64,000 nucleotides of DNA from Thelephora terrestris (taxonomy: Eukaryota > Basidiomycota > Agaricomycetes > Thelephorales > Thelephoraceae): assembly GCA_015956445.1 (NCBI GenBank), contig WIUZ02000003.1, forward strand, positions 2,418,001 to 2,482,000, in the 5' to 3' direction. Below, piece by piece: positions 22,291 through 64,000 of this stretch. The translations under genes were made by a program, and so were the position numbers. Within the stretch, counting starts at the first letter, position 1; the number at the start of each line of letters is the position of its first letter. The notes below the pieces were generated by a model. It did no database searches and was not told the origin of the DNA. It saw nothing but the letters and a program-made list of their open reading frames with translations.

Positions 22291-22744
22291 CCTATTCTTC
22301 TCAGTTCTCCTCCTTTTGTTGCTTATTCATTCTCCATGCTTAGTTCCCTATCCCCTGTGATTTCACCATCGCATCATGGATTCTTAATCATCCTCCCCCT
22401 AGCTTTCTCAGAGATTCCTTAGATATATGTATGTCTCCCTTTGTCTTAGCTAAAGAAGAATCCAATTGACTGGAGTTGTGCCCCATTCCCCAGAGTTGTG
22501 ATGAGTTCCCCCTTTATCTAATAGGGAGATTCTGTGTCTCCCTATTATTTCCAGTGTGTCAGGAACATGGTATTTTTAAACTTTTTATAACACGCTCTTT
22601 CTTCGAACTCTTCTTACCTTTTCTTATGTTTGAATGCTTCACACTCCTTATCCTTCACACCCATCATTCAAAACACACACAATGCACAATCCATTCGCAG
22701 TGAATCAGAACAACATGGCTATATACAGTGTTATCAATGTCCTT

Positions 22745-24527
22745 TCAAAAGTCGACTCTATCTAAGGCAGGCCTCATGGTCATCAGCATTCCATCCCAGA
22801 GATCGAAAAACCGGCCCCTCCTCACAAGGATCTCTCCGAACATGGCATCCCCGTCCTCCGCACTCAACTGAACATCTAGTTCAAGTCGATAGCAAGAGAT
22901 GCCTTCGTACGGACCAATCAGCCTCCCAGAGGTCACCAAACTGCAGAACACCTGACCCCACATCTCCATCACCGGGTGACTGCTCAGCAGCACTGTCGAC
23001 GTAGTCAAAGAGAGACCCTCTGTCTCCCTCATCGGAGGCCTGGCCGGGTTCCTGTACTGCAAGTCGGGTGAGGTGCCTGAGCTGGACCTCCGACTCGACC
23101 TGTTGGTTGGGACGGTTGACCCGGTATCGGAAGGGTCGTCCCTCATCTCGACCAGACTGGTCACCATCTGACTCAACTGGACGCGGATAAGGGTAAGCCG
23201 AAGGTGCCATGCAATGAGCAACACGGCGTCGAGAGCGTTTACAACACTGCCCTGTTATCACCGGACGTACCTCGGCAACCCTCAGAGCTTCTTCGGCCCG
23301 GTCAACGACCATGACCTCATCCTCGATCTTCACCAGTTGACTGATCGGCTGCAGCAGGCAACATCAACAGTTCTCCTTGTCGGACTCGGCCAAAGTAGAA
23401 GCTGGAGCCGGAGTTGGGATGGGAGCCTTGTTCTCTACCAGAGGCGTAGCGTAGGTCGACGGGTTAGGCGATGGGAGTACCACCTCATTGGCGTAATCCA
23501 ACTCAAACGGAACATCAGCTGTCCCCTGTCCAACCAATACAGGACCCTCCTTGCAGTTGCAGGACTTGTCCTGCAAAGACTCGACCCGCGCCGTCAACAC
23601 GGACACCAGATCCTCAAGTTCCTTGATCTAGAAGAAAGTCTTTCAGCGTTTGCAAACAACCTGCAAAGGCTGAAAGAGACCTTAACATTTTCACCCCCGA
23701 TCTTCTTCAAGTGCCTATCCAGGCGATCGTCCCTCATGTCCAAGGCCTTCCTGATGTTGACGTCCCGAACTTTCAGGCTGGCGACTAACTCTTGATGGTT
23801 AGCAACCATCGCCTCCAACGCCTCATTTGTCCTCTTCTGGAAGTCAGCCATGGTCTCCTTCATCAAGAGACCCTCTGCAGACAGACGAAGGACATCTGCC
23901 TTCGCCTCCTTCACCTTGCACTCCAATCGTTCAACCTAGGCAGTTTGGTTAGTCGAGAGTCATACTCGAATATCCAAACGGAAAACCTACCTGGCTTTCC
24001 CCCTCTCGAACGAGCGACCACAACAGCATGGTGGAAGTGATGGCATGGCGGACGGCCCAAGGAACGGTTGCCCCGTGTTCCAACAGGTCTTGATCGTAAA
24101 TACCCCTCTGCAGGGTGTACCAGAGCTCCTTCTTGATTGGATGCTCCAACTCCCCGAACCTACCCCTCATTTGGAAGATCACCTTCTCGGCGATCATGGA
24201 CCGGACCCAAAGCTCATCGTCCCAGGTCAACCCCATCAAATGCGGGATCGTCTCCCTGAGACGTTCGGCGTCCACCTTCTTGACGACTTCCAAGATCTAG
24301 AAGACGTTAGCTCGGCGTCCTGCCAAAGAATGTACGACCTCTACCTAAGGGAAAGAGTTAGAGCAGACACAAAAAGCTTTAGTTCTCCCCCATACCTGTT
24401 CATCAGTGGTATAGGGAACCCCCGCCTCATTGGCGTAGGTCTTGCGGTTGGCGGCACGACGGTCAATGCGGGAGATGGTGGAGATCCCGTTGGCAACCTT
24501 GTAGGTATGGTTGTTGGGGAAGGACAT
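22745..24527 (-). CDS. Antisense gene of element B1 (coiled-coil protein)
   Basis: Exon 1 is 24396-24527 (MSFPNNHTYKVANGIS..TTDEQ), exon 2 is 23991-24296 and exon 3 starts at 23936, with GT..AG introns. Exon 2 contains LTWDDELWVRSMIAEKV and IKKELWYTLQRGIYDQD; exon 3 is a heptad-rich coil (VERLECKVKEAKADVL). A later exon carries a Cys motif (SCNCKEG) and a basic cluster (CKRSRRR). The last conserved block (SGRLIGPYEGIS..VDRVDF-stop) is in another frame; a candidate 49-nt intron (donor GTCGAC, weak) would join it in phase. The same layout is present in B2. I do not recognise the family. Position inside a mobile element argues for an element protein rather than a host one. Confidence 0.55.
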
Positions 24528-25445
24528 TTTGGTAAGAGGATGGGGAAGTTGCTGGTATTGCTGATCAAGGATGGCTCCAAGAAGACGTCCTTCTCATAGC
24601 CTAGATCAGTGATCCTTCACGTGACCTACCTCGACGAACCTCATTGGTCCGGGTCACATCAACTTCCGCCACTGTACCATCATCGTTGGCTTACTACATC
24701 AAGCTGACACCTCAGCCCGTGGGACGGCCTTGGAAGAACTTCGTTCTGGAACGCCTAGAACGCGCGCACACTAAAAATAGGTCTCATGACCTTGACGACC
24801 CCTTTAGGAACCCCTTTATGACCCTGATGACTCATTTATGACCTCACGATAACGACCAACCCTGGACCTTGATCACACACGTGGACAGTCACATCACAGT
24901 CTCCTAACCGGAGGAAGGAATCGCCGTTATTCAGAAGGAGTGCCTTAGACTCCTTTTGGTTAGCCAAGCGAATGTGGAAGTAGCCGTTAGCGTGAAACAC
25001 CGGCGAATCTGTAATCTCTCATGTCCCATGAGTCTAGGCCCGACCTCCTCATGTTCGGACGTACATTGAGGTTGCCACTAGTCCGCGATGCTGTTACCGC
25101 CTACAGACAACAAGGGATGATGAATGGTCTCTATCTTTGGCCTCTCCAAAGGAAGCATCCAAGAAGATTCTCACCTGACCCTTGGGTGTGATCCCCAGGT
25201 ATGAACTTTCATGACCCCATGCCCTATTCCTTTTTGGACTAGTGTATCTCTACCCCTATGTTTCATGCAGACATTTGTTATCTTTTATGCAATCCTTCAC
25301 ACGCTAGTAAGGCCCTTTGTCCTTTATTCTCCCACGCGTCATATTTGTTCGCTTCCCTTACTTAGCGTTCTCACACTCCTTATCTCCCTTTGTTCGGACT
25401 TGATAAGGGTATATTAGGGTATTGACGTCATGGCCACTCCTTTAG

Positions 25446-25453
25446 TATAAGTA
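25446..25453 (+). promoter_or_regulatory. TATA box of element B1
   Basis: TATAAGTA lies about 450 nt before the 3' end of the element, after the antisense gene, where an LTR promoter would sit. It is conserved in B2 at 62690. Confidence 0.5.
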
Positions 25454-26457
25454 GCAACTGTGGCTGTATCGTAGTACCTTAGTTTTGTTACCTCAGGAAA
25501 TCCTCTGCCCTTCTCAGCCCAGTTGCAGTTAAGGACAAGTCAGAGTTTCTTGTTTGAACACAAGGCATCCCCCATCTGCTCTCCCTCCCGCTCTGTGCGT
25601 CAACTGCGCCTTGTAACTATAGAACCCCAGCGTTCACCTTATAGAATCCTCAAGCGTCCAGTTGATCACCTGGTGGAGTCATCAATCCTGCTGTAGGGAT
25701 AAACCCTTGCTTGTTAAACCGAACGAAGTACAGTTTAGGTTGGGTTTCTCTTTAGGATTTCGACCTGACTTGTAGTGACCTCGGACAACGTACTGGAAGA
25801 ATAGAGAAGTGATCTTTTTCTCACAGCTAGTTGGACTAGTGAGTACTCTGCGGAGTCGGCTCAGTGCACTGGTAGTTGTTGGGGTAGAGTGGCCCTGACA
25901 CAGTGTCTCCCTATTGTCGCCCAAGTCTCCCTATCGTCTCCAGAAGCTTCCCTATCATCGCTATTGTCTCCTTATCATCACCCAAGTCTCCCTATCGTGT
26001 GATGATTTCGCCGTTTACCCCCTTTTATTTCCTTTATTTAACGCCTCATCACCACTAAGTTAGTTGGTGCCCTGCCCTAAACACGGCGGTAAACTGTTTA
26101 TTATGCAGTATGCCCTATGCTTAACGACTCAAAGTCCAATACGTGGAACATGCTACTAGTCAAGATACCCCAGAAGACCCGAGGTATAATACGTGAACAT
26201 GTACCGGCGGACCTTCATACGAAGATCCCCCCTACCTGGCCCTCTGTTGCCCCTGGACGATTAGTAGATATTCAGGCTACCGACAACAAGGGATGTGTTA
26301 ATAAGCGATGCGCGCTGACCTCTCGCAGAAGTCAACCGGCTTATTAATCTGACCCTTGGATTGGACTTATGAAAACCATTATGCTTTACGACTCATGGAT
26401 CACGCGCAATAGACAAGAAAGAAGATTCATTGGAAGCCAACAGTACAAAAGAGTTAT

Positions 26458-27721
26458 CTAATCAATATCTCTTCGGATCCTTTGTACTACTTCCAATGCC
26501 GATCTCACCAACTCCTCATTCAACCAGTTCTGCTCCCAGATCTCGTTTGGATCCACGTCCGACAAGTCATCGTAATCTGGAAGCTCCGTATCAGAGTTTG
26601 GTTCACTATCGGGAACGAACTCGGCGTACGGATCATACTCCAGAGCAGGCCATTGACGGCGACTACCCCAAGGAGTAGAAACGAACTCAGGACGAGGAGT
26701 GTCCCTACGGACGACTCCTACGTTCTGATAGAATTCGTCGCTCCCAATCTCAATGACCTCATCGTCGATGGGAACCAACCTGTTCTCGTGACGGACCAAC
26801 AAACGAGCAGGCGGCGACTCAGCCCGGTTAGGGATGATCGGCGACCCGGCCCGATGTGGAACCTCCAACTCCTCTTCTTCGACTCGAACCTCCGGCCCAT
26901 TACACCTCCTCTGGAGATCTCGGACTTCTCCGGTTAATTCGGAGATACGACGAGTAAGGCGAACCTAAAACGAATAGGGTTAGAAGACATTAAAAACCTT
27001 CAACCCCTACCCGTTACCTTATCGTCCTCCAATTCTCCGGTTTTGGTAACCAGAGCCCGGACCAAGTCCTTGAGAGTGGTCACCTCTCCCTAAAAGAAAG
27101 TTTGAGTTAGAAAGGTCAATTACTCCGGACCCAAACTTTCTTACCTTCAGCAAATCAATATCGGCCCCCTGTCGGACAACGCTATCCTCCTGTCCATGAA
27201 TAACTCCCTGCATATCCTCCTTCCAATTCTCCAAAGCTTCTATCTCCTCACGACGACCATCAATACGCTCGTTGACATGAGCCACTTCGTCCATCAACAT
27301 GGACCCAACGTTCCCCGTATGGAGAACGTTGGCCTCCAACACGGAGTTGAAGGTCTCGTTGGCCTCGGTCACAAACTCAACACCCCTATTGAGGAGTTCG
27401 TTCGCATATGGGTTCGTCTCGATACGCGCCAACTTGCGCCGAGACACCCTACGAGCAGCTTGGAGAAAGTCCCTGAAACCTAAAAGGAGTTAGCTTGGTT
27501 TCCTAAAACCGGAATACGCAAGCAGGGCCCCCACCTAAATCAGAGAACCCCTCATTAGGGTCGGCGGTGGCGGTCCGGTCCATAACAGCTCCCAAAGTAG
27601 GATGAGGGCGGGATGGATCACGACGGGCATGGGAGAAGCGGTCGATGTTGTAGTTGTTCTCCTGAACAGGAGAGTAAGAAGAAGAGCGACGAGTGGGATT
27701 GCGAGTAGAAGCACGAGGCAT
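26458..27721 (-). CDS. Antisense gene of element C1 (366 aa, coiled-coil)
   Basis: Four exons on the minus strand: 27535-27721, 27145-27479, 27018-27089, 26458-26964; the introns are 53-55 nt with GT..TAG ends, and exon lengths sum to 1101 nt with matching phases. The N-terminus (MPRASTRNPTRRSSSYSP) is basic and Ser-rich. The middle is predicted coiled coil (DEVAHVNERIDGRREEIEAL and TTLKDLVRALVTKTGELEDD). The C-terminus is very acidic (SDTELPDYDDLSDVDPNE) and ends RSALEVVQRIRRDID. No enzymatic motif is seen. The copy in C2 keeps every exon and splice site, although residues within exon 2 differ. Family unrecognised; it lies antisense to the element's own promoter, as in elements A and B. Confidence 0.65.
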
Positions 27722-28152
27722 GTTGGCTGTGTGTAACAAAGGTGGGTTTGTTGAGAGACCCAGTCATCCAACCCCCTTTGGTTATATACCAAATGCCACG
27801 CCCCTTCCACGACTCAGGAGTTGAGTCATCATTTCTATTGTTTACTGCGCATGACCCACATGACATCATATGCCCCTATTTCTTAGTCATATGCTCCCCT
27901 TTTGCCATTGGCTGTTAGTCAGTCATACCCACATTCCTTCCGAACATTCCCAGGCTACGTCATGCTTTGTAACTGCTTTGTAATGCTCTCAAATTGCTAT
28001 TGGCCGCCACACTTTCGTTTATCAGCTGATAATTTGTAGCATTAGTCACCACGTAACGCACAGACCATGCAGTGCTGCGCACGGACCATGTTTGTCTGTG
28101 TTTGTATCTTTAGGGTAGTTACATGTCACTGTCACGTCACAAATCTAAGTAG

Positions 28153-28160
28153 TATATATA
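28153..28160 (+). promoter_or_regulatory. TATA box of element C1
   Basis: TATATATA sits about 255 nt before the end of C1. About 80 nt upstream is CGCACAGACCATG, a motif also found upstream of the TATA box of family A. In C2 this TATA run is the exact insertion point of A5. Confidence 0.5.
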
Positions 28161-28416
28161 CTCAGAGTAGTTTAGCCTGTACTCCTTAGATTTGTTATCA
28201 TCAGACTCTCCGTGACCTCTACTGCTGTGTGCTTAGAGCAAGAGTGCCTGAAGACCCTTGTCTCCTTCTTTCTCCTCTCTTCCAATCTAGTCTGTGAAGA
28301 GACTTCCGATATCCCTGGGTTTGCAACAGGGTTATAACTGTGTGTTTGACCCCTGAGTGCGATAGGTTTGGATAGCAAGAGTGCTATTGAACTGTAGAGG
28401 TCGCATCGGCCTGACA

Positions 28417-29221
28417 TATTGTCTCCAGTGTCTCCCTATCTTCTGCTTTGTCTTGCTATTGTTCACTCTGGTTCCCTCTTGCTCGCTCTGGCTCCCTACT
28501 CAATCCCAACAATAACCTACAATTCCCAACAATTCCCTACAGTTTCCTGAGGAGCTTGTTGGCACTGTACAACCACTGGACCCCCTCTCAACCCTTCCCT
28601 CTCCTAGCCATCCCGACTCTCCAGCAAATTGAGGGAAAACATTGCGTCCTGAGGGGCCTCTACAGCCTCAATGTCACCCTCCTCTGCCCTCCCGTGTTGC
28701 GCTTTTCAATGTTTCCCATCCTTCTTCCTCCAGAGCCTGAACCGCTGTTTGGAAATACTCTCACTGAGGTCCCTGTGCTCCTTGTCCTCTGGGACAGGGT
28801 CTCCTCATGATGTGGCATCATGATTTATTGGACTATCCAGGATTGTGTTGTTCCGGGATATGAAGTGGCTCTTCTTGGTTCCACCAGATCTGGCTTTGTC
28901 CTCATTATCCCCACCCTTGCTGCTCCAACTGCTTGAATTACAATTGTCCAATATTTCAACCGTCTGACGAATGCATTGGGTGAGGCCTTGCTTGACTGCC
29001 TTCTTGACGCTCTTGGCCTTCTCCACACTGAAACAGCTGATGATGGCAATATGCAAATGACCTTGGAATTTTTCAAGGATCCTGTCAGCATGCTGAATTT
29101 TATTCCCTTTTTGAACCATTTTTCACACCCAACTTTCAACTACTTTCCTTACCTCCTCGTTCTTATCTTATCAATTTCCCTTATCACGACTCACACATCA
29201 TCGAAAGGACACAGACAAGCA
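28417..29221. other. Host flank with unassigned open frames
   Basis: This continues the CTCCCTAT-rich host sequence interrupted by B1 and C1. A plus frame to 28810 (ending PVLLVLWDRVSS) and a minus frame at 28805-29119 (MVQKGNKIQHADRILEKF) are open but unrecognised; either could be part of a broken gene. Confidence 0.35.
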
Positions 29222-29694
29222 TGATGATATTACGACTGGCCAACCACAACAAAGACATAAGATGAATCACCGACGGAGTTGAATCCGCACGGGCTCTATG
29301 GACGAGGACTAAGGCGTTGAACTGCTACTATCCGGGTGGAGTCGGGACACGACCAGAATAGCAGAAGTGGGGGTGAGGGATCGCCGGTTGTGCAGAGGTT
29401 GGGGAGGGGAGAGAAGCTAGACAGAGGAGAGGGAACCACGGTAGGTCACGATGTTGTCGGGACGAGAAGGGAGAACTCCGTGCTAGCAAACTCCTGCTAG
29501 ACGATGACGATGGGCTAGGGGGCTAGTGGGCGATGGGCTAGTAGGCTAGGGGGCTATTGGAACTATGGGGCTAGTGGAATCAATGTCAGAGCGAGGAGCT
29601 GGAGGTTTTTGATGATCAGGTCGTTCAGGCAGAAGGGAGAAGAGGTGTGAAGAGGCCCGGGGGTTTCTTGTTCGTTCAACTAGCTAGTACAGGG

Positions 29695-35500: not shown

Positions 35501-35794
35501 ATCAAGTTGTGGTACCACAACTTGTCATCCATGGTCAAGTAGTGGGGAGGCCTGGCGATCGTTGCCTCCAGTTGTCGAGCATCCACCTTATCGGCAACCG
35601 CGAAGATCTACGACGCGATGTCAGTTGTTGCCAGCAAACGGCGACACGTGACGTCGCACCTCGCGATAACTAGGGTACGCCACATTGGCGTTCGGCAGGA
35701 AGTACCCCTTGTTCTGTACAGACCGAGGGTCAGCGGACTCGATGGTAGCGGTGCTGTTCTCAGCACGGAAGACACGGTCGGAGATCATGGGCAT
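35501..35794 (-). pseudogene. Antisense gene of element E, 5' part only
   Basis: Exon 1 is 35660-35794 (MPMISDRVFRAENS..YPSYRE), a 52-nt intron (GTGCGA..GTCGTAG) spans 35608-35659, and exon 2 runs from 35607 to the P1 junction at 35501. Exon 2 reads IFAVADKVDARQLEAT, then YLTMDDKLWYHN, which lines up with exon 2 of the B gene (ILEVLSEVDVERLRET, LTWDDELWVRT): same intron position and same spacing. The gene is cut by P1 after about 80 residues. An upstream in-frame Met at 35857 is possible. Confidence 0.55.
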
Positions 35795-35953
35795 AATGGA
35801 TGAGTAGTCGGTTGGTAGGATTGTTGGTTTGAGAAGAAGGGAGTTTGATGAATCCAACGGCCGGTTCGCGCTACGCTTTATCCGACCATCGAGAGCGCTC
35901 GCGCCCTATTCGCCATTGGATCGGTCCATCGTTTCACCGGCCCAGACTCCCCA

Positions 35954-36906
35954 CACTGGGGACAAGGGGTCAAATACCCGGTGGGTACATGCTGAACACA
36001 TTGTGATCACAGTCAACAAGTAATCACAATGTGCCCAGTGGGGGAAATTTGAATACATTCAAAATGTGCCCGGCCATGTGAGTCCAATGTGCCAAGTAGG
36101 CACATTTTGATTGTGATCACAATGTACCCATCAATGTGATCTAAATGTGCCCACTGGGGACATTTTGGTTGCGATCACAATGTACACATCAATGTGAACT
36201 CAATGTGCCTGCTGTGCATATTTTGATTGTGATCACAATGTTCCCATCAATGTGTTCTCAATGTACCCAGCTCATTACATAATAGTTTCTTTCACAATGT
36301 TGTCCACAATGTGTCCAGCATGTGGCTGAGCCACTCATTCAAACTTCTTTCACAAAGTATCCAGTGATGTGTCCATAATGTCCCCAGGGGGTTCTTTTTG
36401 AAGTAATCACAATGTAATCTCAATATTGTTCAATTTCACCATGAACTTTCAAAGAAATCACTATGTGTATGGCTGTACACATTCTAGACACATCACTGGA
36501 TACTTTGTGAAAGAAGTTTGAATGAGTGGCTCAGCCACATGCTGGACACATTGTGGACAACATTGTGAAAGAAACTATTATGTAATGAGCTGGGTACATT
36601 GAGAACACATTGATGGGAAAATTGTAAAAGAAATTAAAATGTGCACAGCAGGCACATCGAGATCACATTGATGTGTACATTGTGATCGCAATCAAAATGT
36701 CCCCAGTGGGTACATTGAGATCAAATTGATGGGTACATTGCGATCGCAATCAAAATGTGCCCAGTGGGCACATTGGATTCACATGGCCAGGTACATTTTG
36801 AATGTATTCAAATTTCCCCCACTGGGCACATTGCGATCACTTTTTGACTGTGATCACAATGTATTCAGCATGTACCCACCGGGTATTTGACCCCTTGCCC
36901 CCAGTG
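35954..36906. mobile_element. F2a, CACTG foldback element (953 bp)
   Basis: Ends CACTGGGGACAAGGGG and CCCCTTGCCCCCAGTG. The 3-bp duplication CCA lies at 35951-35953 and 36907-36909. The whole element is a long imperfect palindrome built from a phrase like ATTGTGATCACAATGT that recurs about every 50-60 bases. CACTG ends and 3-bp duplications are those of the CACTA (EnSpm/CMC) superfamily. With no transposase it would be non-autonomous. Confidence 0.8.
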
Positions 36907-36989
36907 CCATACATTCGCTTCAACCATTCAAGCCCCACTCGGTCTTTTGTTGTCCCGATCGGACGAGCTGACGTGTCGTCCTCTTATTG

Positions 36990-37490
36990 CACTGGGGGCA
37001 GGGGCACCTGGAATCAGTGATTACATCTTGATTACATGGTGAGTTCATGTGCACTTTTCAATGATTGTAATCGCCAATTCCAGGTCGATTACATTTCAAA
37101 TGTTACCTTGACATGTAATTCGACTGTTGCCACCAACTCCATTTGAAATTTCCTCAAGATGTTCCCAAGCAATATTTCCTGAATGTGCCCAGTGGGTACA
37201 TTGTGAAAACATCTCATGTTTTTGAGCGCATTTAGATTACATCTTGGACGATTGCAGAACATGCTGATTACATTGCAGTATCATTTTTGCTGACAGGTCA
37301 AAAGCATCCCAGAAACATTTGTTGAGCACATTTTGAATGGAATTGGTGGAAATTGGTTGGATTACATGTCAAGGTAACATTTGAAATGTAATCAACCTGG
37401 AATCGGCAATTACAATCATTGAGAAGTGCACATGAACTCACCATGTACTCAAGATGTAATCACCAATTCCAGGTGCCCTTGCCCCCAGTG
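36990..37490. mobile_element. F1b, CACTG foldback element (501 bp)
   Basis: Starts CACTGGGGGCAGGGGC and ends CCCTTGCCCCCAGTG, with the TTG duplication at 36987-36989 and 37491-37493. About 150 bases at each end are inverted repeats (GATTACATCTTGATTACATG and its complement). Same length as F1c. Inserted in element E upstream of its TATA box. Confidence 0.85.
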
Positions 37491-37705: not shown

Positions 37706-37713
37706 TATATAAG
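37706..37713 (+). promoter_or_regulatory. TATA box of element E
   Basis: TATATAAG about 470 nt before the end of the element, in the same relative position as in family B. Confidence 0.45.
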
Positions 37714-44600: not shown

Positions 44601-44662
44601 GCAGGCCTACAACCCTGACAGGCGAGTCTGGAGTGGCTGAAGAGGGGTTGCGGGATGTTTGA

Positions 44663-47891: not shown

Positions 47892-49812
47892 TAAGCAGGC
47901 CTACAACCCTGACACTGTGCACATTTTAATTTCTTTCACAATGTTCCCATCAATGTGTTCCCAATGTACCCACCTCATTACATAATAGTTTCTCTCACAA
48001 TGTTGTCCACAATGTGTCCAGCATGTGGCTGAGCCACTCATTCAAACTTCTTTCACAAAGTACCCAGTGATGTGTCTAGAATGTGTACAGCCATACACAT
48101 AGTGATTTCTTTGAAAGTTCATGGTGAAATCAAACAATATTGTGATTACATTGTGATTACTTCAAAAAGAACCCCCTGGGGACATTATGGACACATCACT
48201 GGATACTTTGTGAAAGAAGTTTGAATGAGTGGCTCAGCCACATGCTGGACACATTGTGGACAACATTGTGAGAGAAACTATTATGTAATGAGCTGGGTAC
48301 ATTGAGAACACATTGATGGGAACATTGTGAAAGAAATTAAAATGTGCACAGCAGGCACATTGAGATTACATTGATGTGTACATTGTGATTGCAATCAAAA
48401 TGTCCCCAGTGGGCACATTGAGATCACATTGATGGGTACATTGTGATCACAATCAAAATGTGCCCACTGGGCACATTGGACTCACATGGCCAGGCACATT
48501 TTGAATGTATTCAAATTTCCCCCACTGCGCACATTGTGATCACTTGTTGACTGTGATCACAATGTGTTCAGCATGTACCCACCAGGTATTTGACCCCTTG
48601 CCCCCAGTGTGAGGACGATCGAGGCCGCCCAGGCCGTCTGGGGGAGGACAGGGTTTGGAGGCACCTCCTAGAGATGGGTCTCGCTGCTGATGGGATGTTG
48701 GGAGACATTCGTGAGAGCATCGCGACACGACAGGCTGTTCATTATACTGCTGTAATTGCGAACGAGCTCATGAGGCGTCAGGAGGGACTTGAAAACAGGG
48801 TATGTCGCCGGGACTGGTCGCGTCCGAGCATAGTGCTAACTCTTGAATGGTAGATTGAGGAAGTCCGTCTTCGCAATGAATGGTTGAGGATCCGCGTGGG
48901 AACGATGGACCAGGCCATGGACGAAATGGATCAGCACTACACCGCAGAGAGCGAGGCCGGGAGTCACTACGTGAGTCCTCGCCGTCCCGCGCAGGGTCGT
49001 GACGCTGACTGGGGCACAGGTCAGGGGTCTGAACGGCAGGATCACGTGGCTGGAGCAATTGCTCGTGGACTTCGTCGAGGCGTCTCTCATGCGCCGGGAG
49101 TACTATGGGGAAGTTGGGGTTCGTCGCGAGGAAGTCACCGCTGTCGCGGAGGAGCCAGTAGCCTTTGGTGGGGTGGAAGATCCGCCTGTGGTTACGGAGG
49201 TCCAGGCCCAGGCAACAGGCGAGGACGGGAATATTGTCCTTGCGCACAGGGAGGATCGCGAGGAGGCTCCGGTCCCGCTCGAGCGCGCAGAAACCGCTGA
49301 AACCGTAGGGGGTGTTGATCATGTGAGTTCATCAATTTGGTCGCGACGTCCACTGGTTGACCTGGGAGATCGTAGGTACCAACACCAGGTGTGACAGTCG
49401 TTGGGGCTAACACCATCGCGCAAGAGGGTCCACTGCCTTCCTATACACGTAACCGCAACTACGGGCGACTCCCTCCTGCGGAATCAGACATGGCCGCTGT
49501 CGGACATGAGAACAACCATGTCATTATTTATGATAATTCACCACAACAAGATTAGATTAGATAAGATAAGGACAAGAAACTCATGGAAAGTTACAGAATG
49601 TTACAGAAAGTTCAGGAACATCCTAGAATGCGCCGGAACATCCTGGAACTTGCCGGAATGTTCTAGAAGGTGACGGAACGTCGCACCCCATGTGACACCG
49701 GTCACACCTTTTGTGACATTTTGTCACACTTGTGACACCTGTCACACCATTAATTACCATAGAATACAGTAGAAGGACATAGAACGTTCTAGAATATTCT
49801 CACATGGAAAAG

Positions 49813-53545: not shown

Positions 53546-54005
53546 TGTGATGATTTCGCCGTTTACCCCCTTTCATTTCCTTTATTTAACGCCTCATCAC
53601 CACTAAGTCAGTTGGTGCCCTGCCCTAAACACGGCGGTAAACTGTTTATTATGCAGTATGCCCTATGCTTAACGACTCAAAGTCCAATACGTGGAACGTG
53701 CTACTAGTCAAGATACCCCAGAAGACCCGAGGTATAATACGTGAACATGTACCGGCGGACCTTCATACGAAGATCCCCCCTACCTGGCCCTCCGTTGCCC
53801 CTGGACGACTAGTAGATATTCAGGCTACCGACAACAAGGGATGTATTAATAAGCGTCGCGCGCTGACCTCTCGCAGAAGTCAACCGGCTTATTAATCTGA
53901 CCCTTGGATTGGACTTATGAAAACCATTATGCTTTACGACTCATGGATCACGCGCAATAGACTAGAAAGAAGATTCATTGGAAGCCAACAGTACAAAAGA
54001 GTTAT

Positions 54006-55265
54006 CTAATCAATATCTCTGCGAATCCTTTGTACTACTTCCAATGCCGATCTCACCAACTCCTCATTCAACCAGTTCTGCTCCCGGATCTCGTTTGGGT
54101 CCATGTCCGACAGATCATCGTAATCTGGAAGCTCCGTATCAGAGTTTGGTTCACTATCGGGAACGAACTCGGCGTACGGATCATACTCCAGAGCAGGCCA
54201 TTGACGGCGACTACCCCAAGGAGTAGAAACGAACTCAGGACGAGGAGTGTCCCTACGGACGACTCCTACGTTCTGATAGAATTCGTCGCTCCCAATCTCA
54301 ATGACCTCATCATCAATGGGAACCAACCTATTCTCGTGACGGACCAACAAACGAGCGGGCGGCGACTCAGCCCGGTTAGGGATGATCGGCGACCCGGCCC
54401 GATGCAGAACCTCCTCTTCCTCTTCGACTCGGACCTCCGGCTCGTTGCACCTCCTCTGGAGATCCCGGACTTCTCCGGTCAACTCAGAGACACGACGAGT
54501 AAGGCGAACCTAAAACGAATAGGGTTAGAAGATACCAAAAACCTTCAACCCCTACCCGTTACCTTATCGTCTTCCAACTCCCCGGTCTTCGCGACGAGAC
54601 TCCGGACCAAGTCCTTCAACGTGATCACCTCTCCCTGAAAGAAAGTTTGAGTTAGAAAGGTCAATTACTCCTGACCCAAACTTTCTTACATTCAACCTGT
54701 CGATCGCCATACCATGTTGCTCCTCCTCATCTTCAATCTTCAAGATGCCCTCATGACACCCGAGGAACTCCTTCTCCAGCTTCTCAATCTCTTCCCGACG
54801 ACCATCAACTCGCTCATTGACATGAGCAATCTCATCCATCAACATGGACCCAACGTTACCCGTATGGATAATGCTGGCCTCCAACACAGAGTTGAAGGTC
54901 TCATTGGTCTCAGTGACGAACTCGACACCCCTATTAAGGAGTTCGGTCGCGTAAGGGTTTGTCTCGATACGCGCCAACTTGCGCCGAGACACCCTACGAG
55001 AAGCCTGGATGAAATCCCTGAAACCTAAAAGGAGTTAGCTTGGTTTCCTAAATTGGAATACGCAAGCAGGGCCCCCACCTAAATCAGAGAACCCCTCATT
55101 AGGGTCGGCGGTGGCGGTCCGGTCCATGACGGCACCCAAAGTAGGATAAGGGCGGGACGGATCACGACGGGCATGGGAGAAGCGGTCGATGTTATAGTTG
55201 TTCTCCTGAACAGGAGAGTAGGAAGAAGAACGGCGGGTGGGAACACGAGTAGAAGCACGAGGCAT
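54006..55265 (-). CDS. Antisense gene of element C2
   Basis: Same four-exon structure as in C1: exon 1 55079-55265 (187 nt in both copies), exon 2 54690-55024 (335 nt in both), a short third exon GEVITLKDLVRSLVAKTGELEDDK, and a last exon to the stop at 54006. All splice sites are kept. Exon 2 differs from C1 in its last third (KEFLGCHEGILKIEDEEEQH instead of NWKEDMQGVIHGQEDSVV) although the length is identical, suggesting a diverged or exchanged segment. The acidic C-terminus is nearly unchanged. Confidence 0.62.
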
Positions 55266-55323
55266 GTTGGATGTGTGTAACAAAGGTGGGTTTGTTGGGA
55301 GACTGTCAGGGTTGTGGGCCTGC

Positions 55324-55947
55324 TTACTGTTTGTGGGGCGCTAGAGGATTAGCAGATGGGTGAGGGGTGTCGGGTCTGACTTTGAAGGGGGTTCCGGGTG
55401 TAGAGACGAGGGGAGGAGGGATATCAAGGGAGAGAGGTGACTCTGTCTGATAAGGATGCACGGGTGAGTGGTAGTCCTGGCAGAACTGACTGAGTTGCTG
55501 CATGAAAGGTTCGAAGTCCTGGTCGCTAAGGCGTTCGAAGTTGACGAGATATTCTATAACCGAATAAGGTAATTCAGTTGGGATCTCCCACCAAAGAACG
55601 ATGATAGCAGGAGAATGGGTATGGATGTTAGTGGTGAGATGAACGCGTGGGGAGGGGAAGTAAAAGGCTGGACTAATACTGAAGTAGACAGTCGCAAGGA
55701 CGCTCTCAGTAAGATCTGAATTCCAAAGGAATTGATGATCGGCTCCTAGGAGAAAAGGGGGAGTAGTGACTCCTGCGTCGAGAGCTGCAAAGGGGCGGTA
55801 GTAAGGGAAATGGGTGAGTAAGCCGGTGGTTCGGTTTACTTGAAGACTTCTGATAAGTTTATACTCCCAGATAGATCTCCTAGCGTCAGGGACGACTGGT
55901 CGCTGAACTGGACTTGTAGAGGGGAAGGGGTTAGGGGCACTGAACAT
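55324..55947 (-). CDS. Sense gene of A4 (207 aa), separated from its promoter
   Basis: An intact homologue of the A1 sense gene. A3 is inserted 11 bp upstream of the ATG at 55947, within the GCAGG just after the leader-intron acceptor, so the gene has lost its own TATA box (now at 58430-58437). The coding frame itself is undamaged, which fits a recent A3 insertion. Confidence 0.6.
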   Translation of the reverse strand: MFSAPNPFPSTSPVQRPVVPDARRSIWEYKLIRSLQVNRTTGLLTHFPYYRPFAALDAGVTTPPFLLGADHQFLWNSDLTESVLATVYFSISPAFYFPSPRVHLTTNIHTHSPAIIVLWWEIPTELPYSVIEYLVNFERLSDQDFEPFMQQLSQFCQDYHSPVHPYQTESPLSLDIPPPLVSTPGTPFKVRPDTPHPSANPLAPHKQ

Positions 55948-56063
55948 ACACTGGCAGGTGTCACGAACGCGTGACATAGTAGCCAAGATCGCACAAGTAA
56001 TCCAAGACATTGGTCTTATTCGCAGTAATAATAGTACACGAGTGGTTAAAAAGAACTACAAAT

Positions 56064-56985
56064 TCAGACAAGAACAAACGGGTCGATATCACATGAACAA
56101 TTCTGGGGAAGAGGGCAACGATGAGCAAAGTGGTGAGGATTATAAACGCTTTCAGGACAATAGGACCACTCTCGCGTCACCGGATCCTGCCAACACTCCC
56201 TACACCCCAACACATCATGAGAGAGACTCTCATACATCTCTCGCCGCACGTCCAGCAAGGCCCCGCTCACTAAGGAGAACCCATAGCGGTCTTGGAGACC
56301 CGCCACTTCCACCTTCAACTTCATCTTCACCTGCCGTGACTTGTCGGAGGGACGACAACGTTGACCAGAACGAGTCATCGGACTCTTGCAGGTCTTCTTC
56401 TTCTGGGACCTCTCCACCATCTGGCGAACTGGGGCAGGACTCCAGGGAGGGGATGGAGGGAGAGGAACACCCTGATCCTGGCGGCGGCGAAGGGACGACT
56501 GGGGACTTGCAAGGGGGGTCGGTGCAATAGGCCCCGCGGCATTGGTGTCCGAAATATCGGAAGAGAGATGCCTGGAAAGGTCCCCAATGTTCCAAAGCAA
56601 AGTGAGAGAAGTCATCATTCAAACTGTTCATGATGACGTACATGAGGTCCACGCGCTTCTCCAACTTCGCGATCCTATCCTCCCTCTCCCTCTCCATAAC
56701 GTCCAACAAGCGAGAGGCCGCAGGGTGTTGAGCCTGCATCTGAGGCATGGCAAGCCTGGGGTCTTCGTACCCAGCCTGTTCCCAGAACTCGGCAGGAGCA
56801 TTGTGAGCGGCAAGGAAGTCAATGGCAACCCGGTTGTCATGAGCGATGTTGGCGGGGGAGTCATAGAGGTGCTGCTCCACGTTGAAGGGAGCATCCGTCT
56901 CGAAGGACGGAGTGAAGTCGAAGGGGGTGGCAGCGGCGTTGAGTGCGGCGTTGAGTGCGGCGTTGTTGGCGACGGAAGAAGACAT
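56064..56985 (-). CDS. Antisense gene of A3 (283 aa)
   Basis: Exon 1 56642-56985, a 70-nt intron 56572-56641, exon 2 56064-56571. Two copies of ALNAA near the start explain the six extra residues relative to A1. The coil and the Cys/His C-terminus (CRECWQDP, HHFAHRC, CSCD) are complete. An upstream in-frame Met at 56994 is possible. Confidence 0.65.
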
Positions 56986-57495
56986 AGTATTCAAAGGTTG
57001 ATTAGGAGAGTGGTGGTTGGTTTGGTGGGAATGGAAAAGAGACGATGGGGGAAACGATCATTAATCCCCCTGACTTAAATACATCCTGACTCAACAGAAT
57101 CCCAAAAGGGAAAACAATAATTATCTTCCATTAAAGTCCCAATTAGGATAAACAAACCCTCAACCCCAAATCGCGATCCCATCAAAACCTGAGAAATCCC
57201 CATCGATCAGGGAATTTCCCCTCCACACTTCTACTACTTCCGAAACTCAGAGAAATCCCCATCGATCAGGAGAAATCCCCGCCACACTTCTACTACTTCC
57301 GAAACCCAGAGAAATCCCCGTCGATCGGAAGAAATCCCCCTAGTCATTCCTCCTATTTGTTTTAGTATTAGTCATTACCGCTCATCGTCCTAAGTCCCCT
57401 TTCTCCGACTCATTCGACCTACCCTAAAGTACGCACAGACCATGTTTACACATGTTTGGTTCCTTGTAGAATTATGACTCCTGTAGAGGATTGGG

Positions 57496-57503
57496 TATAT
57501 AAG
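57496..57503 (+). promoter_or_regulatory. TATA box of A3 sense gene
   Basis: TATATAAG, 153 nt before the ATG at 57649; the leader intron is 57579-57630 (GTAAGC..CTCAGCAG). Confidence 0.55.
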
Positions 57504-57648
57504 GAAGAGCGTTCGCTCCTTTCTTTTCCCCATTCTCAATCTCTTCTGTACCTCTCTACCCACAACTCGAATATAAAAGTAAGCTGAGGAATTCTCCTCA
57601 CGCCTTACCGTTTCTAACCCATCTCAGCAGGAATCCTCCTGCTAGTGT

Positions 57649-58272
57649 ATGTTCAGCGCTCCCAACCCTTTCCCCTCTACAAGTCCAGTCCAACGACCAG
57701 TCGTTCCTGACGCCAGGAGATCTATCTGGGAGTATAAACTCATCAGGAGTCTTCAAGTAAACCGAACCGCCGGTTTACTCACCCATTTCCCTTACTACCA
57801 ACCCTTTGCAGCTCTCGACGCCGGAGTCACCACTCCCCCATTTCTCCTAGGAGCAGATCACCAATTCCTTTGGAATTCGGATCTCACTGAGAGCGTCCTT
57901 GCAACCGTATACTTCAGTATCAGCCCAGCCTTTTATTTTCCTTCTCCGCGGGTCCATCTTACCACTAATATTCATACCCATTCCCCCGCTATCATTGTCC
58001 TTTGGTGGGAAATCCCAACTGAATTACCTTATTCGGTTATAGAATACCTCGTCAACTTCGAACGTCTTAGCGACCAAGACTTCGAACCCTTTGTGCAGCA
58101 ACTCAATCAGTTCTGCCAAGACTACCACTCACCCGTCCACCCTTATCAGACCCAGTCACCTCTCTCTCTAGATATTCCTCCTCCCCTCGTCTCCACACCC
58201 GGAACCCCCTTCAAAACCAGACCCGACACTCCTCACCCTTCCGCTAATCCTCTAGCGCCCCATAAACAGTAA
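57649..58272 (+). CDS. Sense gene of A3 (207 aa)
   Basis: Complete and collinear with the A1, A2 and A4 sense genes, with intact TATA, leader intron, start and stop. Differences from A1 are few (for example YQPFAALDAG, PRVHLTTN). Function unknown. Confidence 0.72.
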   Translation: MFSAPNPFPSTSPVQRPVVPDARRSIWEYKLIRSLQVNRTAGLLTHFPYYQPFAALDAGVTTPPFLLGADHQFLWNSDLTESVLATVYFSISPAFYFPSPRVHLTTNIHTHSPAIIVLWWEIPTELPYSVIEYLVNFERLSDQDFEPFVQQLNQFCQDYHSPVHPYQTQSPLSLDIPPPLVSTPGTPFKTRPDTPHPSANPLAPHKQ

Positions 58273-60027
58273 GCAGGCCTACAACCCTGACAGCAGGAGG
58301 ATTCCTGCTGAAATGAGTCAGAAAGGGTAAGACGTGAGGAGAGTTCCTCAGCTTACTTGTATTCAGGTTGTGGGTAGAGGAGTACAGAAGAGATTGAGAA
58401 TGGGGAAAGGAAAGGAGCGAACACTCTTCCTTATATACCCAACCCTCTACAGGAGTCATAATTCTACAAGGGACCAAACGTGCGTAAACATGGTCTGTGC
58501 GTACTTTAGGGTAGGTTGAATGAGTCGGGGAAGAGGGACTTAGGGCGACGAATGGTAATTACTAATACGAGGACAATAAGAGGAACGACTGATGGAAGTA
58601 CTAGGGGATTTCTCGTGTTTCATGGTGGCAATAGAAGCGTTTTGGGGATTTCTTCCGATCGACGGGGATTTCTCTGGATCTCGGAGGTAGTAGAAGTGTG
58701 GCGGGGATTTCTCCTGATCGATGGGGATTTCTCGGGTTTTGATGGGATCGCAATTGGGGTTGAGGGTTCGTTTATCCTAATTGGGACCTTAATGGAAAAT
58801 AGTTATTGTTTTTTTCCTTTTCGGGATTCTGTTGAGTCAGGATGTATTTAAGCCAGGGGGATTAATGATCGTTCCCTCCATCGTCTCTTTCCCACTCCCA
58901 CCAAACCAACCACTACTTCCTTAACAACCTTTGATAATATGTCTTCCGTCGTCGCCAACAACTCTGTGCTCAACGCCGCTGCCACCCCCTTCGACTTTAC
59001 CCCTTCCTTCGAGACGGATGCTCCCTACAACATGGAGCAACACCTGTATGACTCCCCCGCCAATATCGCTCACGACAACCAGGTGGTGGTGGACTTCCTG
59101 ACCGCTCACAACGCCCCTGCCGAGTTTTGGGAACAGGCTGGGTATGAAGATCCCAGGCTTTCTAGGCCTCAGCCTGAGGCTAAACATTCCGGAGCGGTTC
59201 TCCTGTTGGACGCCATGGAGAGGGAGAGGGAGGATAGAATTGCGAAGCTGGAGAGACGGGTGGATCTTATGTATGTCATCATGAACAGTTTAAACGAGGA
59301 CTTCTCTCACTTTGCCTTGGAACATTGGGGACCTTTCCAGGCATCTCTCTTCTGATATTTCGGACATCAATGCCACGGAGCCTATTGCACTGATCCCCCT
59401 GCTAAGTCCCCAGTCATCCCTTCGCCGCCGCCAGGATCAGGGCGTTCCTCTCCCTCCATCCCCTCCTTGGAGTCCTGCCCCAGTTCGCCAGATGGTGGAG
59501 AGGTCCCAGAAGAAGAAGAACCGCAAGAGTCCGATGACTCGTTCTGGTCAACGTTGTCGTCCCTCCGACAAGTCACGTCAGGTTCGGATGAAGTTGAAAG
59601 TGGAAGTGGCGGGTCTCCAAGACCGTTATGGGTTCGCATTAGTGAGCGGGGCCTTGTCGGACGTGCGACGCGAGATGAATGATAGCTTGTATCATGATGT
59701 GTTGGGGTGCAGGGAGTGTTGGCAGGATCCGGTGTCGCGGGCATATTCGTATTGTCCTGAGAGTATTTACAACCCTCACCATTTCGCTCATCGTTGTCCT
59801 TTTGCTCAGGAATGTGCTTGCGACGTAGACCCGTTTGTCCTTGTTGTCAGGAACATGGTATTTTTAAACTTTTTATAACACGCTCTTTCTTCGAACTCTT
59901 CTTACCAATTCTTATGTTTGAATGATTCACTCTCCTTATCCTTCACACCAATCATTCGAAACACACACACGCGCGTACTATTCCCAGCGAATCCACAACG
60001 AGCTATACAAGTGCTATCCCAATCCCA

Positions 60028-61766
60028 TCAAAAGTCGACTCTATCTACGGCAGGCCTGAAGGTCACCAAACGTCCATCTCGGAGATCGTAGTGCTGGCCC
60101 CTCCTCGCTAGGACCTCCCCGAACATGGCGTCACCATCTTCGGCACTCAGCTGAACGACTAGTTCAAGCCGATAGGAAGAGATGCCTTCGAGCGGACCGA
60201 TCAGCCTCCCAGATGTCGCCGAACTGCGGAACACCTGGTCCCACATCTCCATCACCGGGTGACTGCTCGACAGCACTATCGACGTAGTCGGCAAGCGACC
60301 CTCCGTCTCCCTCATCGGACCCCTGGGTGGGATCCTGTCTTGCGAGGCGAAGCTGGTGTCGGAGTTGGATCTCGGACTCGACCTGTTGGTAAGGACGGTG
60401 GACCCGATATCGGAATCCTCGCCCCTCACCTCGACCAGAGAGGTCACCATCCGACTCAACTGGTCGAGGATAAGGGTTAGCTGAGGGAGCCATGCGATGA
60501 GCAGGACGGCGTCGAGAGCGTTTGCAACGTTGCCCCTTAGTCACCGGACGTACCTCGGCGACCCTCGGAGCATCTTCGGCTCGGTCAACCTCCATGACCT
60601 CATCCTCGATCTTCACCAACTGATGGATCGGCTGCAAGACGCAGCGCCCACAGTTCTCCTTGTCGGAAGCGGCCAAGGTGGAAGCCGGACCCGGAGTCGG
60701 AACGGGAACCGAGTTCTCGATCGGAGGCGTCGCATAGGACGACGGGTTAGGAGAAGGGAGTACCACCTCGTCGGCGTACTCCAACTCGAACGGAACATCG
60801 GCGGTCCCCTGACCAACCAATTTGGGACCCTCCTTGCAGTTACAGGTCTTGTCCTGCAAGGACTCAACCTGCGCTGTCAACACGGCCACCACGTTCTCGA
60901 GTTCTTCGGTCTAGGAAATGTCAGCTTCCATCATCTTAAGCAATGATGAAAGCGGCATTACCTTTTCATCCCTCCTGGCCAACGCCCCCTTGATGTTGTT
61001 GTCCCGAACCTTCAACCCAGCGATCAACTCTTGATGGTTGGCGACCATTGCCTCCAACGCCTCGTTCGTTCCCTGTTGAAAGGCGGCCAGAGTCTCCTTC
61101 ATCTGAAGACCCTCTGCCGACAGACGAAGGACGTCTGCCTTCGCCTCCTTCACCTCGCGCTCCAAACGTTCAACCTAGGCAGTTTGATTAGTCGAGAGTC
61201 ATACTCGAATATTCAAACGAAGGACCTACCTTACTCTCCCCCTCCCGAACGAGCGACCACAACAACGACGTGGCGGCAGTGGCATGGCGGACGGCCCGAG
61301 GAACGGTTGCTCCGTGCTCCAATAGGTCCTGATCGTAGATTCCCCTTTGCAGGGTATACCAGAGCTCCTTCTTGATCGGATGCTCCAACTCTCCGAACCT
61401 ACCCCTCATCTGGAAGGCCACCTTCTCGGCGATGATCGTACGGACCCAGAGCTCGTCATCCCAGGTCAACCCTATCAAATGAGGCATCGTCTCCCTGAGA
61501 CGTTCGACATCCACTTCCGAGAGGACCTCCAAGATCTAGAAGTCGTTAGTTTGACATCAAACGCCAAAAGAACGTTCCTCTACCTAGAGGAAGGCGTTAG
61601 TGCGAACACACGAAGCTCTAAGTCTCCCCCATACCTGATCATCCGTGGTATAGGGAGTCCCAGCCGCACAGGCATAGGTTTTGCGAGCGGCAGCACGGCG
61701 GTCGATACGAGAGATGGTGGAGATACCATTGGCAACCTTGTAGGTATGGTTGTTGGGGAAGGACAT
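60028..61766 (-). CDS. Antisense gene of element B2
   Basis: Exons on the minus strand: 61635-61766, 61230-61535, 60962-61174, then from 60910 leftwards; introns 99, 55 and 51 nt with GT..TAG ends. The first three exons have 44, 102 and 71 codons. Exon 3 is a strong coiled coil (VERLEREVKEAKADVLRL, ETLAAFQQGTNEALEAM). Exon 4 has CNCKEG, a Ser/Pro region and CKRSRRR. As in B1, the conserved end (SGRLIGPLEGIS..VDRVDF-stop at 60028) is in another frame and needs a further splice; a 49-nt GTCGAT..ACCAG candidate lies near 60245-60293. If it is not used, the protein ends RRHLFLSA at 60164. Family unknown. Confidence 0.58.
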
Positions 61767-62689
61767 GTTTTGGTAAGATGATGGGGAAGTTGCTGGTGTT
61801 GCTGATCAAGGATGGCTCCAAGAAGACGTCCTTCTTATAGCCTAGATCGGTGATCCTTCACGTGACCTACCTCGACGAACCTCATTGGTCCGGGTCACAT
61901 CAACTTCCGCCCCTGTACCATCATCGTTGGCTTACTACATCAAGCTGACACCTCGGCCCGCGGGACGGCCTTGGAAGAACTTCGTTCCGGAACGCCTAGA
62001 ACGCGCGCGCACTAAAAATAGGTCTCAAGACCCTGATGACCCCTTTATGACATCACGAACCCCTTTTACGACCCCTCATGACTTTACGATTACGATCAAC
62101 CCTGGACCCTGATCACACACGTGGACAGTCACATCACAGTCTCCTAACCGGAGGAAGGACTCGCCGCTATTCGGAAGCATCGCCTTAGGATCCTTCTGGT
62201 TAGCCCAGCGCATGTGGAGTAGCCGTTAGCGTGAAACGCCGGCGAATCTGTAATCCCTCATGTCCCATGAGTCTAGGCCCGACCTCCTCATGTTCGGACG
62301 TACGTTGAGGTTGCCACTAGTCCGTGATGCTGTTACCGCCTACAGACAACAAGGGATGTTTGCATGGCTCTACTCCCGAATCCGCTGGTACAACTATGTA
62401 AAGGGAGATTGCCACCTGACCCTTGGGTGTGATCCCCAGGTACGAACTTTCATGACCCCATGCCCCTTTTTCTTTTAGGACTAGCGTTATCTTTACCCCT
62501 ATGTTTCATGCGGACATTCGTTATCTTTTATGCAATCCTTCACATGCTAGTAAGGCCCTTTGTCCTTTATTCTCCCACGCGTCACCTTTGTTCGCTTCCC
62601 TTACTTAGCGTTCTCACACTCCTTATCTCCCTTTGTTCTGGACTTGATAAGGGTATATTAGGGTATTGACGTCATGGCCACTCCTTTAG

Positions 62690-62697
62690 TATAAGTA
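62690..62697 (+). promoter_or_regulatory. TATA box of element B2
   Basis: TATAAGTA, same position relative to the element end as in B1. Confidence 0.5.
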
Positions 62698-63660
62698 GCA
62701 ACTGTGGCTGTATCGTAGTACCTCAGTTTTGTTACCTCAGGAAATCCTCTGCCCTTCTCAGCCCAGTTGCAGTTAAGGACAAGTCAGAGTTTCTTGTTTG
62801 ATTCAAGACATCCCCCATCTGCTCTCCCTCCCGCTCTGCGCGTCAACTGCGCCTCGTAACTATAGACTCTTCGCAGTCATATTAGAACACCTCGAGCGTC
62901 CAGTCGATCAACTGGTGGAGTCATCAATCCTGTTGTAGGGATCAACCCTTGTTTGTTAAACCGAACGAAGTACGGTTTAGGTTGGGTTTCTCTTTAGGAT
63001 TTCGACCTGACTTGCAGTGACCTCGGACAACCTACCGGAAGAATAGAGACGTGATCGTTCTCTCACAAGCTAGTCGGACTAGTGAGTACTCTGCGGAGTC
63101 GGCTCAGTGCACTGGTAGTTGTTGGGGTAGAGTGGCCCTGACACTTGTCTGAATTTGTAGTTTTTGTTAGCCCCCTTTGTATTATCTTTACTACGAATAA
63201 GACCAATGTCTTGAATTATTTGTGAGATCTTGGTTACTATGTCACGCGTTCGTGACAGAGACCAGTCATCCAACCCCCTTTGGTTATATACCAAATGCCA
63301 CGCCCCTTCCACGACTCAGGAGTTGAGTCATCATTTCTATTGTTTACTGCACATGACCCAGATGATATCATTTGCCCCTATCTTTAGTCATATGCTCCCC
63401 TTTTGCCATTGGCTGTTAGTCAGTCATACCCACATTCCTTCCGAACATTCCCAGGCTACGTCATGCTTTGTAATTGCTCTGTAATGCTCTCAAATTGCTA
63501 TTGGCCGCCACACTTTCGTTTATCAGCTGATAATTTGTAGCATTAGTCACCACGTAACGCACAGACCATGCAGTGCTGCGCACGGACCATGTTTGTCTGT
63601 GTTTGTATCATTAAGGTAGTTACATGTCACTGTCACATCACAAATCTAAGTAGTATATAT

Positions 63661-64000
63661 TGTCACGAACGCGTGACATAGTAGCCAAAATCACACAAAT
63701 AATTCAAGACATTGGTCTCATTCGCGGTAATAATAGTACAAAGGTGGCTAAAAGGGACTACAAACTTAGACAAGGACAAACGGGTCGATATCACAAGAAC
63801 AGTTCTGAGGAAGAGGGCAGCGATGAGCGAAGTGGTGAGGGTTATGGATACTCTCAGGACAGTAAGACCACTCTCGCGTCATCGGATCCTGCCAACACTC
63901 TCTACACCCCAACACATCATGAGATAGACTATCATACATCTCTCGTCGCACGTCCGACAAGGCCCCGCTCACTAATGAGAACCCATAGCGGTCTTGGAGA
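63661..64000 (+). mobile_element. Element A5, left part only
   Basis: TGTCACGAACGCGTGACA start at 63661, with TATAT on the left as the expected duplication; it runs off the window. It lies in the TATA box of C2. Confidence 0.8.
63766..64000 (-). CDS. Antisense gene of A5, C-terminal part
   Basis: Encodes the Cys/His end of the family A antisense protein (LGCRECWQDPMTREWSYC, HHFAHRCPLPQNCSCD, DPFVLV-stop). The rest lies beyond the window. Confidence 0.55.
   Translation of the reverse strand, partial: LQDRYGFSLVSGALSDVRREMYDSLSHDVLGCRECWQDPMTREWSYCPESIHNPHHFAHRCPLPQNCSCDIDPFVLV

Follow-up and report, generated by a model that had tools for sequence, protein, structure and literature searches.

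What kind of mobile element carries complete, spliced genes antisense to its own promoter? The question is raised by a 64,000-nucleotide stretch of the Thelephora terrestris genome (the window; C23:2418001-2482000, given as contig:position, in a genome of 40.6 Mb and 60 contigs), which contains three families of large repeats, A, B and C, together with fragments of a fourth family, E. A first-pass annotation of the window had proposed that these are giant elements resembling long terminal repeats (LTRs). For E this is the case: the units are LTRs with a spliced antisense gene. The sequence evidence strongly suggests that A is an LTR family of E's lineage, and we infer that B and C represent LTRs from further lineages of this kind, with two-LTR forms that have been lost or were not found. 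On balance, it is probable that all four are Ty3/gypsy LTRs of T. terrestris with a complete spliced antisense gene in U3.

Self-comparison of the 64-kb window resolves A, B and C into discrete repeats, nested in each other, with unit sizes of 3.3 kb (A), 2.3 kb (B) and 2.4 kb (C). The units start with TGT, end with CCTGACA and lie within 5-bp target duplications. The copies in the window are the following.

22557..25900, plus strand: family A unit, TGTCAGG...GGCCCTGACA, duplication CAGTG
59845..63143, plus strand: family A unit, duplication CTTGT
42333..44620, plus strand: family B unit, duplication GGCGA
45650..47914, plus strand: family B unit, duplication CTGTG
55959..58292, plus strand: family B unit, duplication GCAGG
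63257->55304, minus strand: family B copy, duplication GTCTC, interrupted by B 55959-58292 and A 59845-63143
63661..64000, plus strand: start of a family B copy; the whole copy is C23:2481661-2483942, with TATAT at either side
25998..28416, plus strand: family C unit, TGTGATG...GGCCTGACA, flanks TATCG/TATTG (4/5 match)
53546..64000, plus strand: second family C copy, continuing beyond the window end, duplication AAGAG

Both A copies and the four complete B copies of the window have perfect 5-bp duplications. The second C copy is inserted in a gypsy pol (integrase) frame at 52550-53572 on the minus strand and is interrupted by two B copies, the minus-strand one and that starting at 63661; its far-side AAGAG is located 2.2 kb outside the window end. 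Duplications were also read around copies from the whole genome. A script recovered them in 28/30 B copies, and the other two (L005, L024) were recognized by reading the ends manually, the script having been misled by an adjacent TGTCAC or CCTGACA. Flanks of ten copies each gave a perfect duplication in 9/10 for C, with none in the remaining copy, and in 8/10 for A (L090 by hand), with one 4/5 match and one absence. TG...CA ends and a target duplication of 4-6 bp, as expected of LTRs, are thus present in A, B and C. The ends and duplications described by the first-pass annotation hold for all three families, with a 4/5 match for the first C copy. Genome-wide lists comprise the best-scoring 40 of 401 candidates for B (56 rows, 37 spanning the full unit, 30 copies fetched), 40 of 635 for A (69 rows, 17 spanning the full unit) and 40 of 305 for C (54 rows, 32 spanning the full unit). 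The lists are also lossy, lacking three copies that the window itself contains: A at 59845 and B at 45650 and 55959. Separate lists of gene loci hold the best 150 of 606 candidates for the A gene and the best 90 of 885 for the B-like gene.

Family E reveals what flanks what. On the 3' side of integrase loci L035-L037, the end of pol is followed by AAGGAGGATCC and then directly by TGTCAGCGTGCTGA. TGTCAGCGTGCTGA resembles the beginning of a window fragment at 29083. A genome search with this 3'-side piece listed 40 places, of 171 candidates, which include six in three pairs that are 8.76-8.80 kb apart. On contig C12, two direct 2,934-bp copies that are 99.93% identical without gaps flank pol, and a GTTTT duplication lies outside both repeats (of the three elements, the duplication was read for C12 only). 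The three full-length elements are on C12, C23 and C5. The enclosed pol, scanned at L035 (983 of 1,301 amino acids), contains RVT_1, RNase H, integrase, Tf2-1-like SH3 and chromodomain matches. Each full element has, behind its 5' LTR, a leader found nowhere else in the genome (three occurrences). AAGGAGGATCC stands between pol and the 3' LTR, where a polypurine tract would be sought, and no primer was assigned to the sequence read behind the 5' LTR. The C12 pair with its GTTTT duplication, the pol between its members and the three leaders identify E as a chromovirus whose LTRs are 2.93 kb long. The expectation that two copies would be found flanking a retroelement interior is therefore realized by E on C12, C23 and C5 and, among the copies listed, not by A, B or C.

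Most listed E copies are unpaired. Among the listed places, 21 LTR intervals measure 2,931-2,936 bp and a further one measures 4,491 bp; three of the 21 belong to the full elements on C12 and C23, and 18 are unpaired. The E LTR ends with GGCCCTGACA, has an R-U5-like tail and carries the sense TATA box TATATAAG 480 bases upstream of its end. Across all 40 listed places, identity is 99-100% over the final 220 bases, and the first 216 are only 91-95% alike in 36/40; the ends may have exchanged sequence, or a burst may have taken place recently.

The E antisense gene begins at L069:2028. It is antisense to pol, is conserved across copies, and lies within both LTRs rather than between pol and the 3' LTR. 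Comparison of L069 with L012 finds 6 replacement and 58 silent differences over 437 codons, a ratio of nonsynonymous to synonymous polymorphism (pN/pS) of 0.03. A search with the gene's exons scored 116 of 1,324 candidates, and the 114 with the DDELW exon were used. Among these are three same-orientation pairs, 8,758-8,799 bp apart, with an integrase between them on the opposite strand. These are the three full E elements; two further same-orientation pairs at 5-16 kb have no integrase between them. The later exons of our own E gene model are uncertain, and the annotated proteins P0010/P0011 are preferred. The structure model of the E protein has a poorly defined helical start and a single helix over residues 134-277, with a predicted local distance difference test score (pLDDT) >90 for residues ~161-260. 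The window itself contains three E-type features.

29083..29317, plus strand: E-type LTR start fragment, 81% identical to the E LTR
35501..38177, plus strand: E-type LTR 3' part, ~90% identical to the E LTR
~35501-35794, minus strand: N-terminus of the E antisense gene, inside the fragment 35501..38177

The larger fragment is interrupted by inverted-repeat elements at ~35954-36907 and 36990-37490, and the outer flanks of the two fragments differ (GATCC and AAGAC). What the first-pass annotation called relic E is E-type in nature and appears to consist of two LTR fragments whose outer flanks do not match.

Family A is connected to E by its protein and by its 3' end. The A protein (L033 copy) is 35% identical to the E protein over 229 amino acids (E-value 1e-28), and the exon order of the two genes is alike by eye. 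The last 36 bp of the units are 83% alike, and the last 15 nt are identical. This protein homology and common 3' end place A, with good support from the sequences, in E's lineage. In its layout E resembles A, B and C: the antisense gene is followed by a TATA box on the sense strand and by a similar end. The genes and promoter elements of these three families in the window are listed below; all gene models are our own predictions or public annotation.

22748..24527, minus strand: multi-exon antisense gene of A, ATG at ~24527, homologous to the E LTR gene
~23991-24296, minus strand: DDELW-motif exon of the A gene
~23691-23935, minus strand: coiled-coil exon of the A gene
down to ~22750, minus strand: later exons of the A gene (uncertain)
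26461..27721, minus strand: antisense gene of C, 4 exons and 3 introns
42607..43341, minus strand: first open frame of the B antisense gene, 245 amino acids
42441-42992, antisense: second antisense frame of B, overlapping the first and ending with a stop at its lower end
43977..44597, plus strand: sense gene of B, 207 amino acids
28153..28162, plus strand: sense TATA box of C, TATATATACT, 262-264 bases upstream of the C end
43823..43830, plus strand: sense TATA box of B, TATATAAG

Several observations show that the multi-exon antisense genes of A, B and C are real and under purifying selection. Sliding codon analysis of B (20 of 32 aligned copies) gives pN/pS values of 0.09-0.22 over positions 541-960 for the antisense frame. 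Values for A and C are mostly 0.1-0.4 in the predicted exon frames (at most 11 A and 7 C sequences), with some windows near introns reaching 0.4-0.55. The first antisense frame of B is open in 27/31 other copies, compared to 4.0 expected if differences were placed at random, and 141/150 listed A exon loci are free of stops. Introns of C conform to GT-AG in 14/15 instances, including the three of the reference, and the exception has a GC donor. In addition, a public gene model, BJ322DRAFT_1018427 (P0017), encodes a protein that equals the C antisense product except for its last part. These results agree with the multi-intron antisense genes of the first-pass annotation. B positions 271-600 (window 42603-42932) are the least variable nucleotides of the family, and most copies keep both of two overlapping antisense frames open there; dual coding by alternative splicing is possible in this region.

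B also carries a gene on its sense strand, which is the most constrained part of the element (pN/pS 0.03-0.09 over positions 1621-2220 in the same 20 of 32 copies). The mirror frame opposite this gene has values of 0.09-0.20 over the same positions, always higher, and contains stops. Mirror frames have their variable third positions in common with the coding frame; the remaining B frames are mostly at ~1 or above. The sense frame is open in 28/31 other copies, compared to 2.6 expected under random placement of differences, and starts ~150 bases downstream of the sense TATA box. Thus, the first-pass annotation erred for B in two respects: its coding capacity is not antisense only, and the part described as short and terminal encodes a second protein. 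The window protein has no Pfam match and no useful match among solved structures. Its structure model, of low confidence (mean pLDDT 40.5), has a helix, four strands and two helices. A resemblance by eye to the fold of ubiquitin-conjugating enzymes was rejected when a profile comparison with human UBE2D2 returned 0.3% probability.

Strong constraint, very many copies and the presence of open genes in unpaired LTRs might also be expected if the antisense frames were host genes, captured and amplified by LTRs and kept for a benefit to the host such as resistance, drive or silencing. We consider this very unlikely. Database matches come only from T. terrestris and environmental sequence in a search that detects close relatives only: relatives of the B sense protein (71-94%) have these two sources, and each of 73 clusters found with the C protein is named T. 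terrestris. Moreover, if the gene is needed by the lineages that move, constraint among the copies of a mobile family is to be expected.

How far the LTR assignment extends beyond E depends on several results that weigh against it. The proteins of B and C have no detected similarity to the E protein, and these families share with E only the first 3-5 and last 7-8 bases. The plus-strand TATA box that was reported to follow the antisense gene in each family is present in B, C and E; in A, no TATA[AT]A match was found in the last third, and there is no clear TATA box. Each of the 30 fetched B copies is a single unit enclosed by its own duplication (two of them by manual reading). When short fragments are left out (27/69 A, 11/56 B and 12/54 C rows), 42 A, 45 B and 42 C listed rows remain, and comparison with 90 integrases finds none between same-orientation copies. 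The same is true of same-orientation loci among the 150 A-gene and 90 B-like gene loci listed, in which 15 A-gene and 3 B-like same-orientation pairs are 5-16 kb apart with no integrase between any of them. Finally, full E elements account for 3 of ~111 listed units, so that ~7 would be expected in ~270 A, B and C units if every family behaved in the same way; none is observed.

A few looser associations were seen. An A or B-like gene lies within 8 kb, on the opposite strand, of the integrases at C23:417302, C7:910427, C23:1046625 and C3:977367, and copies on one side, within 12 kb, occur at C15:533060 (B), C4:1123145 (C) and C56:1499750 (E). Two matches came from a DNA-pattern search for head-to-tail termini. 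Two candidates were rejected: the B copy on C59 that stands 2.2 kb behind an integrase is not its 3' LTR, having its own AACGC duplication, and the two B copies 12 kb apart on C23 do not form a two-LTR element, with A and inverted-repeat sequences in between.

Since no listed pair of A, B or C surrounds an integrase, we place our confidence that B and C are LTRs well below that for E; for these two families the assignment derives from their plan, their ends and their 5-bp duplications. Sequence comparison indicates common descent for A and E only; B and C have the common plan. The proposal of one superfamily is accordingly retained by descent for A and E and reduced to a shared plan for B and C, which lack protein similarity to E. 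Two annotated proteins, P0087 and P0089 (the latter at C1:3260934), combine a B-like N-terminus with a C-like C-terminus. They might link B to C or be predictions across nested copies, and are not used as evidence. Two-LTR forms of A, B and C may have died out or be outside the lists examined; otherwise, the units spread in some other way.

One such way is as DNA transposons. The first-pass annotation had named complete DNA transposons with a transposase elsewhere as a finding that would refute it, and A, B and C could be autonomous or non-autonomous elements of this kind with TGT...ACA ends (Ginger-like or of a type not yet recognized), encoding a transposase or helper and resembling the E LTR only at their ends. 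Copies that stand alone, each in its own 5-bp duplication, and the lack of any listed pair around an integrase are what this explanation predicts, and B, with two selected genes, looks self-contained. Nevertheless, a Pfam scan of A, B and C proteins matched no transposase family, Ginger elements make 4-bp target duplications, and A has homology, in its protein and at its 3' end, to a proven LTR. We regard DNA transposons as unlikely.

Alternatively, the LTR-like units could move singly by a retroelement route, with helpers such as E supplying the enzymes, so that A, B and C never had two LTRs. The many single copies and the lack of A, B and C pairs in the lists would fit, and many unpaired E LTRs are young, judging from the 3' ends of all 40 listed, which are 99-100% identical to that of a full-length element. 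This seems very unlikely, as ordinary LTR-LTR recombination accounts for young solo LTRs, and we know of no mechanism for the spread of a single LTR by helper enzymes. A related notion is that the gene-bearing LTR is the unit of selection, with A, B and C as one-LTR retroelements that lack gag-pol, encode their own helper genes (antisense, and in B also sense) and borrow enzymes from relatives like E. It is speculative and, in our estimation, quite unlikely; if true, retroelements would have a previously unrecognized way of life in single-LTR spreading.

If, as we favor, the units are LTRs of Ty3/gypsy elements, their behavior might be explained as follows. Sense transcription from the LTR TATA box would produce the genomic RNA, and a second promoter facing the opposite way would express the accessory protein from the antisense gene. 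This protein, predicted to be a largely helical coiled-coil, could act in trans, at the promoters or chromatin of the elements that encode it. Help to the element by this route is the likeliest of the possible functions, though at somewhat less than even odds, and is suggested by analogy. In B, the sense protein would be encoded just after the TATA box and thus near the 5' end of the genomic RNA. A gene within the LTR would be copied at both ends of every insertion, and recombination between LTRs would leave a solo LTR that still carries the gene because the gene is located there. The genome would thereby fill with gene-bearing solo LTRs. In E, the LTR may have taken up an antisense gene that was originally internal.

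Some other features of the window and its surroundings are listed here.

48602-53572, minus strand: relic of a gypsy family with a 1,452-amino-acid pol; open frames follow behind pol on the other strand
31562-35500: near-perfect giant palindrome, arms of 1,938 nt, 100% complementary, 63 nt apart, with TTAGG-like tracts inside
38326-42006: second palindrome of related sequence, less perfect
35948-36906, 36990-37490, 45387-45649, 47915-48615 and 52075-52584: smaller inverted-repeat elements; the ends of some resemble CACTGGGGGCA, and two of the elements lie inside the E-type LTR fragment
17444-20879: NACHT and WD40 frames, an NLR-like gene adjoining the repeat nest
1259-2346 and 4332-5537: diverged duplication, 64-70%
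30471-31348, plus strand: two-exon open frame (MSSSSKW...) that matched only itself among the loci compared

Members of the 1,452-amino-acid-pol family have an antisense-coding stretch behind pol. It was considered as a second example of an LTR gene, but none of its 13 matches is paired, which makes it internal.

Antisense accessory genes are already known from gypsy elements. They are described between pol and the 3' LTR in Boty (brtn), Grande, RIRE2 and Retand (PMC7264820, PMC11963269, PMC4227169, PMC8365987). Boty, from Botrytis cinerea, is the closest in kind, as a fungal chromodomain gypsy element that has an additional antisense gene and for which a solo LTR flanked by a 5-bp duplication is described (PMC7264820, PMC4227169). 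However, brtn is internal, whereas the genes described here are in the LTR, have several introns, and hence occur in both LTRs and in solo LTRs. Retand, Grande and RIRE2 (GENE23, TRP28) resemble the present families in an antisense accessory protein that is kept in most copies and that in Grande has its own promoter (PMC11963269, PMC7264820). They differ in being plant elements with the gene between pol and the 3' LTR. For the plant antisense proteins, action in trans at promoters or chromatin of the elements has been suggested in the literature; no TRP28 match was listed for the proteins scanned here.

A literature search covering mainly titles and the starts of abstracts found no published case of a spliced antisense gene within an LTR that is kept in solo LTRs. 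To this extent, the first-pass annotation's view that antisense, intron-bearing LTR genes are new agrees with the literature: antisense genes in gypsy elements have precedents, and spliced ones inside the LTR, retained by solo LTRs, are apparently new. Gene-bearing LTR units are present at more than 100 listed places for E and likewise for A, and many annotated 'hypothetical proteins' of T. terrestris are the genes of LTR-like units. They offer a direct handle on the function of antisense retroelement proteins that is relevant to brtn, GENE23 and the Retand proteins.

Retroviruses provide two further comparisons. The sag gene of mouse mammary tumour virus is a protein gene within an LTR, on the sense strand; the sense gene of B differs from it in being placed after the TATA box. 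The HBZ gene of human T-cell leukemia virus type 1 is, like the genes described here, antisense, with a promoter in the 3' LTR. HBZ is spliced and acts in trans on promoter and chromatin. Most of its coding part is outside the LTR, so that solo LTRs would not carry HBZ. An internal accessory gene of a gypsy element is similarly lost on collapse to a solo LTR, whereas a gene borne by the LTR leaves behind a promoter and an open, selected gene.

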